DNA from: an uncultured Acidimicrobiaceae bacterium
Lineage (GTDB): Bacteria > Actinomycetota > Acidimicrobiia > Acidimicrobiales > SZUA-35
Reading direction: 5' to 3'
NCBI GenBank assembly: GCA_947259095.1
Contig: CAMYLA010000012.1
Location: 1 to 63,234, forward strand
DNA: 63,234 bases
The notes below the pieces were generated by a model that saw only the letters and a list, made by a program, of their open reading frames with translations, ran no database searches and was not told the DNA's origin. This document shows, piece after piece, positions 29,350 to 40,454 of the stretch (position 1 is the first letter of the stretch; every line of letters starts with the position of its first letter). Position numbers and translations under genes: made by a program.

Positions 29350-30153
29350 TCAGCTCCAGTGCCGCGTCCGGGCGAACCGGGTCAACCGGTGGTCGATCGT
29401 CTCCCACACCGGGTGGTCGGGGTCGATGATGTGGAAGTGGTCGACGTCGGCCGGTGCCAGCAGCTCGACCTCGTCGCCGGCATCGGTGGCAGCCGTTGCG
29501 TAGGCGATCCCGATCTCCTGGGGAACCGCGTCGTCAGCTCCGCCGTGCACGATCAGCTGGGGGAGACCGAGGGGGAGCAGGGCCCGTGGCGAGGCGGCCC
29601 GATAGAGGTCCGGCCGGGCTGTGCTGTCGGCTCCGAGCAGTCGGCGGACCACCCCGTCGCTCAGGCTCAGCCGGTCGGCCGCCACCAGGTCGGCAACGGG
29701 GGCCAGTGCCACCACCGCATCGATTCCGGACGAGGTGGCGCCGGCCCAGAGGGCCAGGTGGCCCCCGGCGGAGTGTCCGATGGCCACGACCGGGCCGGCC
29801 GAGGCATCTGGCCCGTGACGTCGGGTCGGGTCCGGCGCCCCATCCCGGGGCTCGTTGACGGCGTGGATCGCCGACAGCACGTCCGACGACATCTCGGGCC
29901 AGATGCCATCCCGGTCGGCCCCGGGGCGATGAGCGTCCGGTTCGGCCAGCCGGCGATACTCGATGTTGGCAACCTCCCAGCCCGAGGCGACAAGATGGTC
30001 GACCATCGGGTCCATCAGGCCCAGTCCGTACCGGTCCCGCCAATAGCCGCCGTGGATGAGGATGGCGGTGCCGATCATGTGGCCGGCGGGCCGCTGGAAT
30101 CTCAGGTACTGGGAGGCATCGGGCCCGTAGGCGTGAACCGTGGCAGTGCTCAT
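29350..30153 (-). CDS. Alpha/beta hydrolase, esterase-like
   Basis: The 267-residue hydrolase has the oxyanion-hole motif HGGYWRDRYG (about 36-45), the nucleophile elbow GHSAGGH (about 126-132), and an acid/base end in VDHFHIID. It resembles kynurenine formamidase and BD-FAE-type esterases. ATG 30153 (MSTATVHAYGP) is the best start. The frame continues upstream through a 21-bp tandem repeat, each unit of which supplies another in-frame ATG, so an N-terminus lengthened by copies of MSRHDWP is possible (307 residues at most). Convergent or divergent neighbours give no pathway. Confidence 0.87.
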   Translation of the reverse strand: MSTATVHAYGPDASQYLRFQRPAGHMIGTAILIHGGYWRDRYGLGLMDPMVDHLVASGWEVANIEYRRLAEPDAHRPGADRDGIWPEMSSDVLSAIHAVNEPRDGAPDPTRRHGPDASAGPVVAIGHSAGGHLALWAGATSSGIDAVVALAPVADLVAADRLSLSDGVVRRLLGADSTARPDLYRAASPRALLPLGLPQLIVHGGADDAVPQEIGIAYATAATDAGDEVELLAPADVDHFHIIDPDHPVWETIDHRLTRFARTRHWS

Positions 30154-30249
30154 GGGCCAATCATGGCGGCTCATGGGCCAATCATGGCGGCTCATGGGCC
30201 AATCATGGCGGCTCATGGGCCAATCATGGCGGCTCATGGGCCCATCGTG
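30151..30249. repeat. 21-bp tandem repeat over the hydrolase start codon
   Basis: Four perfect 21-nt units begin CATGGGCCAATC and end GGCGGCT (30151-30171, 30172-30192, 30193-30213, 30214-30234), followed by a degenerate fifth (CATGGGCCCATCGTG). On the minus strand each reads ATGAGCCGCCATGATTGG, adding seven residues MSRHDWP in frame. Copy number is likely to vary. Confidence 0.95.
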
Positions 30250-30386
30250 CCTGGACCCGGGAGCAGATCGCACGGTCGGCCCCGGCCGGACCCCAGGGGC
30301 GTGCGACCTCGACCGGCCGCTGTCGTCGAACCTTTCTGGGGACTAGTGTCGAACAACAATCCGATGGTCGAGGACGGGGGATCTTG

Positions 30387-39770: not shown

Positions 39771-40454
39771 TCAGTCCTGGCCGGAGAGCCTGGCCCTGAG
39801 CTCGCCGAAGGCCGATCGACCCGCATCGCTCATGGTCCAGGAGATGTAGTCGGGGCGAACCCGTTCCCGGAAGAACGGGTTGGAGAAGGTCTCGGCCCAC
39901 CAGCCGACCGGCCGCAGCATACGATCCTCCAGATCCGGATCGAAACCGGTCCAGTTCCGAGCGTGTTCTTCCGACCGGAAGAGGTTCATGCTCGCTCACC
40001 GGAACGGCCTCGTCGAGGCCTCGCCGCCCACCTCGGCGCTGGTGTAGCCGACCATGGTGTCGGGATCGACCGACAGGATCTCCTCGTCCCGCATCTCGAC
40101 CACCATCGGTTGGCCACAATCCAGACACGGCGCTTCGACGCGGACGGTCTTGCCGGGGAACAGCCAGCGCACGGCCAGCGATTCGAAGCCTCATTGGCCA
40201 TACCACGACTGTTTGCCGTCAACCGAGATCCGGTACTGGGTGGGCTGGTTGTTGAACGGTGGAAACGAGGCGATGTAGTCGGTGCCGGGATGGACCCAGC
40301 CCGGGATCGATTCCATCAGCTCGTGGACCACCGCTCGGCCGTTCTCCGGTGACATGTCGAGTGCCGATGCCAACTCGGTGAAGTGCGGGGCGACACCGGT
40401 GTCGACCATGGTCGTCATGATCGAGGCGAATGCCTGGTCGAGATACGTCGTCAT
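39771..40454 (-). CDS. MerB-like (organomercurial lyase) protein with two in-frame TGA codons, probable double selenoprotein
   Basis: One reading frame of 227 codons, starting at ATG 40454, contains TGA at codon 88 (40193-40191) and codon 153 (39998-39996) and ends in a third TGA at 39771. If both are read through, the product has an N-terminal winged-helix part (about 1-60) and a MerB-like domain. By-eye alignment with MerB puts Sec88 on catalytic Cys96, Glu91 on Asp99, Cys110 on structural Cys117 and Sec153 on the Cys158-Cys159 pair (catalytic Cys159), with spacing differing by at most two residues. The segment after Sec153, NLFRSEEHARNW, matches the MerB C-terminus. Each TGA has a bacterial SECIS-like hairpin at the right distance. 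Two nonsense mutations that both hit the catalytic cysteines would be a remarkable accident. Fourth gene of a five-gene operon; mercury itself need not be the substrate. Confidence 0.75.
39967..39982 (-). promoter_or_regulatory. Bacterial SECIS-like hairpin for the second TGA
   Basis: In the mRNA sense TCTTCC and GGAAGA form a 6-bp stem closed by the tetraloop GGTC. The loop begins 20 nt after TGA 39998-39996. In E. coli fdhF the apical loop also holds GGUC, about 19 nt after UGA. Fits the bacterial SECIS rule of a G in the first two loop bases, 16-37 nt from the UGA. Confidence 0.7.
40161..40177 (-). promoter_or_regulatory. Bacterial SECIS-like hairpin for the first TGA
   Basis: TGGCC and GGCTG pair with three GC pairs and two wobble pairs around the seven-base loop GTGCGCT. 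The loop begins with G, 19 nt after TGA 40193-40191. A longer alternative pairs CTGGCCG with CGGCAAG (40178-40149). Weaker than the second hairpin. Confidence 0.5.

Follow-up and report, generated by a model that had tools for sequence, protein, structure and literature searches.

A MerB-family gene with in-frame UGA codons at both metal-ligand positions is a predicted double selenoprotein of an uncultured Acidimicrobiaceae bacterium

RESULTS

A MerB-family frame read through two UGA codons

The DNA analyzed here, 63,234 nucleotides (nt) from an uncultured Acidimicrobiaceae bacterium (contig CAMYLA010000012.1 of assembly GCA_947259095.1; this whole stretch is referred to as the window), carries on its minus strand a 227-codon reading frame of the organomercurial lyase (MerB) family, which begins with an ATG at position 40454, ends with a TGA stop at 39771, and is interrupted by in-frame TGA at codons 88 and 153, being otherwise unbroken. 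To judge from sequence comparison, both UGA codons are very probably read as selenocysteine (Sec). We assign a probability of roughly 0.7 to the fuller reading, which draws on sequence and structure modeling, that the product would be a double-Sec MerB relative that cleaves the carbon-metal bond of organomercury; this joint confidence is below that in the recoding because the lyase act is no more than likely. An initial annotation, made from the letters alone, had described one 227-codon frame with two TGA codons and no other disruption, and our reading of the frame bears this out. The relevant features are as follows.

39771..40454, minus strand: MerB-family reading frame, 227 codons plus TGA stop, read through two UGA codons; PF03243, modeled MerB fold
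40191..40193, minus strand: codon 88, TGA, predicted Sec; aligns to MerB Cys96
40182..40184, minus strand: codon 91, Glu, predicted proton donor; aligns to MerB Asp99, Glu in nearly all alignment rows
40163..40179, minus strand: predicted hairpin of the selenocysteine insertion sequence (SECIS) type for codon 88; 6-bp stem, loop CGUGC, 17 nt after the UGA; based on fold, conservation and published rules
40125..40127, minus strand: codon 110, Cys; aligns to MerB Cys117
39996..39998, minus strand: codon 153, TGA, predicted Sec; aligns to MerB Cys159
39966..39983, minus strand: predicted SECIS hairpin for codon 153; CUCUUCC-GGUC-GGAAGAA, 6 of 7 pairs, loop GGUC, 19 nt after the UGA

The window protein passes the cut-off of the Pfam MerB model PF03243 (68.9 bits versus 27), and its predicted structure has the MerB fold. 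In a phmmer alignment to MerB (PDB 3f2g), codons 88, 91 (Glu), 110, and 153 fall on Cys96, Asp99, Cys117, and Cys159, respectively; the by-eye placement of the first three in the initial annotation agrees with phmmer, and its placement of codon 153 at the Cys158-Cys159 pair was correct as to position and is now narrowed to Cys159 itself. The two TGA sites lie 65 residues apart, with no Cys directly before either. According to passages in PMC4525700 and PMC8261052, Cys96 and Cys159 of MerB bind Hg and Asp99 acts in proton transfer; in place of this catalytic set, the window gene has TGA/Glu/TGA. The gene thus resembles MerB (PF03243; NF009710, NF033555; PDB 3f2g, 1s6l, 5c17) in family, fold, ligand positions and the Cys117 position, and differs from it in having UGA for both ligand cysteines, Glu for Asp99, and an identity of about 20%. 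Assignment as a curated MerB equivalog was rejected, as both cut-offs were missed (NF009710, 38.4 versus 193; NF033555, 37.7 versus 200).

The two TGA codons recur in relatives from four phyla

Relatives were gathered by a scan of public genomes, which gave 22 loci, and by searches with the subfamily alignment, which matched 42 of 395 genomes of the window's class, 24 of 148 genomes of the class of a "Deltaproteobacteria" relative, and 18 of 245 genomes of the class of a Dehalococcoidia relative; a Nitrospirota class was searched with the model of SaoL, a MerB-related selenoprotein (matches in 8 of 230 genomes). From the fetched loci, DNA was read for 95 distinct aligned genes or fragments, a set that leaves out weaker matches without a locus (in the window's class, for example, 15 of 45 match rows). 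The subfamily, as used below, consists of the 56 of these 95 genes that score at least 150 bits against the subfamily model, window gene included.

TGA is universal at the Cys159 position of the 56 subfamily genes, and the Cys96 position is divided between TGA (33 genes) and Cys (23); TAA, TAG, and any other residue are absent from both sites. Below 150 bits stand 39 rows, comprising 25 Cys/Cys, 11 Cys/TGA, 2 fragments that lack the first site and have TGA at the second, and 1 with neither; the highest-scoring row free of TGA is a Cys/Cys gene at 110 bits (L128). Within the 22 loci of the public-genome scan, the codon-153 position is TGA throughout, and the codon-88 position is TGA in 7 and Cys in 15. 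A gene 77% identical to that of the window, from a separate assembly (L024), carries both TGAs, and by record title or taxonomy the double-TGA form occurs in Actinomycetota (L024, L025), "Deltaproteobacteria" (L032, L037 and L040, which are Myxococcota in NCBI taxonomy), Chloroflexota (L043), and Nitrospiraceae (L045). The codon-88 state switches at least five times on a tree of 44 members, and five switches were again found on a tree built after leaving out the columns around codon 88. Hence the gene shows what is taken to mark a selenoprotein, namely an in-frame UGA that is conserved and aligned with Cys in relatives; the initial annotation had named homologues with Cys at both positions as support, and the homologues have Cys or TGA at both. 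Recurrence of the two TGAs in independent assemblies takes the place of the read-level check that it had also named. In 11 of the 22 public-scan loci, all of them Cys88 forms (L026, L028-L031, L033-L035, L038, L039, L041), the frame continues for ~147 residues past the MerB domain.

Candidate SECIS hairpins are conserved behind both codons

Bacterial SECIS elements are described in a review (PMC13188914) as having a loop of 3 to 9 nt with a G in the first two positions, a stem of 4 to 16 bp, and a spacing of 16 to 37 nt; both predicted window hairpins, with folds of -13.2 and -15.1 kcal/mol over 48 nt, satisfy these rules. When TGA sites were ranked by hairpin energy among all codons of their own gene, mean ranks came to 0.22 at codon 153 (23 sites), 0.36 at TGA88 (8 sites), and 0.39 at Cys88 (15 sites). 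Because this ranking hardly discriminates, we used synonymous-site conservation instead, measured in 6-codon windows along the columns of the subfamily model. In the 33 double-TGA genes, the two top nonoverlapping peaks lie directly after the TGAs, over the SECIS-like hairpins (columns 155-160, z 5.0; columns 89-94, z 2.9). In the 23 Cys88 genes, the peak after codon 153 persists (z 4.3), whereas the window after codon 88 drops to z 0.4.

The hairpins themselves follow the same pattern. Behind codon 153, all but one of the 56 genes have a GGUC loop, and 55 of 56 retain 6 or 7 of 7 pairs. Behind codon 88, a stem with 6 or 7 of 7 pairs is found in 33/33 TGA genes versus 17/23 Cys genes, and a loop starting with GU in 33/33 versus 7/23; the loop-adjacent pair in the TGA genes is G-C, A-U or G-U in 17 and open in 16. 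Pair counts of the codon-88 hairpin in TGA versus Cys genes gave a Mann-Whitney p of 0.06 (43 genes).

The genome encodes Sec machinery

The genome of the window (6.39 Mb in 229 contigs, 96.5% complete, 7.1% contamination) carries adjacent SelA and SelB genes on its contig C168, a tRNA-Sec with anticodon TCA, and two SelD genes, both of which contain an in-frame TGA toward the N-terminus, so that selA, selB, selD and selC, for which the initial annotation had suggested a check, were all found. The two SelD genes differ (G000:C27:8618-9541, L012; G000:C83:1757-2680, L013), the TGA lying within an N-terminal HGAGUACK; given the 7.1% contamination, one of them may be foreign. SelB exceeded its cut-off in 22/22 genomes of the public-scan loci versus 2/14 control genomes. 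In the sample of the window's class, a MerB-like gene whose second site reads TGA is present in 24 genomes; SelA is over its cut-off in 22 of these 24 versus 256 of 395 overall (Fisher p 0.002; matched by hand), the other two being G377 (56% complete) and G196 (96% complete).

DISCUSSION

A possible mechanism and its mercury context

The retained metal-ligand positions and the MerB fold make cleavage of R-Hg+ the likely act. In the scheme that we propose, Sec would be inserted twice by SelB and tRNA-Sec, acting with the hairpin that follows each UGA; Sec88 and Sec153 would hold R-Hg+ as selenolates where MerB has two thiolates; Glu91, standing in for Asp99, would protonate the leaving carbon; and Hg2+ would then pass to small thiols or a partner protein. 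Selenols have a lower pKa than thiols and bind mercury more tightly. A double-Sec site would therefore suit trace methylmercury, with product release made harder. Small selone mimics of MerB split Hg-C faster than thiones (PMC11639659). The genomic link to mercury is partial. In one genome (G022), a double-TGA gene (C1:1408052-1408666) lies ~3.2 kb from MerA (C1:1403446-1404828; 541.5 bits), the MerA gene being on the opposite strand and separated from it by a PIN/CcdA pair and an SDR gene. DoxX and DUF3179 genes adjoin that MerA, near the double-TGA gene (L102, G022:C1:1398000-1413000), and the DUF3179 family is counted among selenoproteins in two reviews (PMC9312934, PMC13188914). Two mercuric-reductase-like matches below the MerA cut-off contain one in-frame TGA each (G001:C16:200235-201584, G237:C67:48411-49787).

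Several findings weigh against a double-Sec organomercurial lyase. As regards recoding, the 96%-complete genome G196 has a Cys/TGA MerB-like gene (L065) and no SelA match; with 7.1% bin contamination, another member of the bin might conceivably be the source of the Sec machinery; in the Cys88 genes, a less varied set, z values up to 2.65 occur in unrelated windows; folding energy alone hardly singles out the TGA sites; and only 3 independent pairs on supported branches were available for a tree-corrected comparison at the codon-88 hairpin. As regards activity, Glu replaces MerB Asp99, no match in the window's genome exceeds the curated MerA cut-off, no mercury gene is among the five window neighbors scanned, and MerA is found in 3/14 subfamily genomes of the class sample versus 44/395 (p 0.20).

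These points on activity, together with the scores far under the curated MerB cut-offs, would also fit a true double selenoprotein of MerB fold that is no organomercurial lyase and acts instead on another organometal(loid) substrate, in metal binding or sequestration, or as a diselenide redox protein. We consider this unlikely, since besides the MerB fold, both metal-ligand positions are Cys or Sec in 56/56 subfamily genes, and one double-TGA member is located about 3.2 kb from MerA.

Public protein entries and the reading of TGA as tryptophan

Public proteins matched at E <= 0.001 number 464, and the best 120 of these were inspected. Among these 120, 104 have Cys at 88 and stop just before 153; Trp stands at both sites in 14; and one entry each has Cys/Trp and Cys/Arg, the latter apparently in a shifted frame. 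An NCBI "organomercurial lyase" of Candidatus Poriferisodalis is likewise a 163-residue fragment that ends before the second site. A search with residues 138-227 alone gave no protein match, and it likewise missed P0002, a known full-length match, so that it is uninformative about Cys153 relatives. Plasmids gave matches in 10 of 72,556 records, at 23.5 to 31.1% identity, none covering >80% of the query.

The 14 Trp/Trp entries would suit a code 4 genome in which TGA means tryptophan at both sites; known from protein entries alone, they would also be the output expected from a gene caller using code 4. We reject such a code as highly improbable, since relatives read from DNA have Cys, never TGG, at both sites, an adjoining oxidoreductase gene ends in TGA, which is in ordinary use as a stop, and the genome contains Sec machinery. 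Equally hard to credit is a decaying gene or assembly error with two chance nonsense changes: translation table 11 does split the frame into two short open reading frames (ORFs), as the initial annotation had expected of gene callers, but the frames are conserved and otherwise open, and the same TGAs, never replaced by TAA or TAG, are shared by separate assemblies and by four phyla, in agreement with the judgment of that annotation that chance nonsense at both sites is improbable.

Relation to known selenoproteins

Two reviews count one MerB relative among selenoproteins (PMC9312934, PMC13188914); the later of them calls it SaoL (NF040728) and gives it a single Sec, in a CU motif. The window gene is likewise MerB-related but has two predicted Sec sites. 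Identity of the window protein with SaoL was rejected (36.7 versus a cut-off of 140, two TGA sites, no CU motif). No match region from 9 relatives (best 59.7), and none of the 8 matches among the 230 Nitrospirota-class genomes, reached the SaoL cut-off. The Cys159 position falls at ~160-165, counted without gaps, on the 159-position SaoL model; as the model ends about there, the Sec of SaoL may sit at the Cys159-equivalent site, and Sec at that position alone may thus be known already. A second MerB-like group of 11 distinct genes keeps Cys96 and Asp99 and has TGA at the Cys159 position (L057, on the minus strand, L060, L062, L063, L064, L065, L067, L068, L071, L072, L073); four of these genes (L060, L062, L063, L067) have match regions that fall below the SaoL cut-off.

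The metal-binding protein NF041115 ("putative mercuric reductase", UxxU) shares with the window gene a mercury-related name and two Sec residues, which in the window gene are predicted (PMC13188914); it belongs to another family by name and model, and both its Sec residues are in one short motif instead of being 65 residues apart. No Sec at Cys96, or at both catalytic sites, of a MerB was found in the best-ranked open-licence literature. By word search of the main texts, mercuric transport proteins, but not MerB, are mentioned in the GOS selenoproteome paper (PMC2398784), and the deep-Sep paper (PMC12013277) and PMC5029168 contain no mercury or lyase terms. Relative to the known one-Sec MerB relative SaoL, Sec at both MerB catalytic positions is new.

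If the double-Sec lyase reading is true, nature has fitted the MerB active site with selenium in both metal ligands, and the existence of Cys/Sec and Cys/Cys relatives makes the gain of selenium over sulfur in carbon-metal bond breaking testable on a natural series. We lean slightly toward a widespread natural organomercurial lyase family that would hold mercury as Se-Hg-Se, be tuned to trace methylmercury, and be overlooked when methylmercury degraders are counted, because gene callers truncate it before the second catalytic residue. Since most of the public subfamily entries inspected (104 of 120) end before the second ligand, surveys requiring that residue would probably miss them.

Neighboring genes

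Neighborhood ORFs were picked by composition, as length-based picking is unreliable in GC-rich DNA. A Pfam scan of five neighbors in the window identified two luciferase-like oxidoreductases, an SDR, a zinc-type dehydrogenase, and an APH-type kinase. Among 39 loci, 8 have a cluster of luciferase-like oxidoreductases, a count that is uninformative, as the window by itself contributes two such genes. Elsewhere on the minus strand of the window, an ORF at 30273..29350 has, by eye, copies of MSRHDWP (repeat at about 30140-30273) preceding hydrolase-like sequence.
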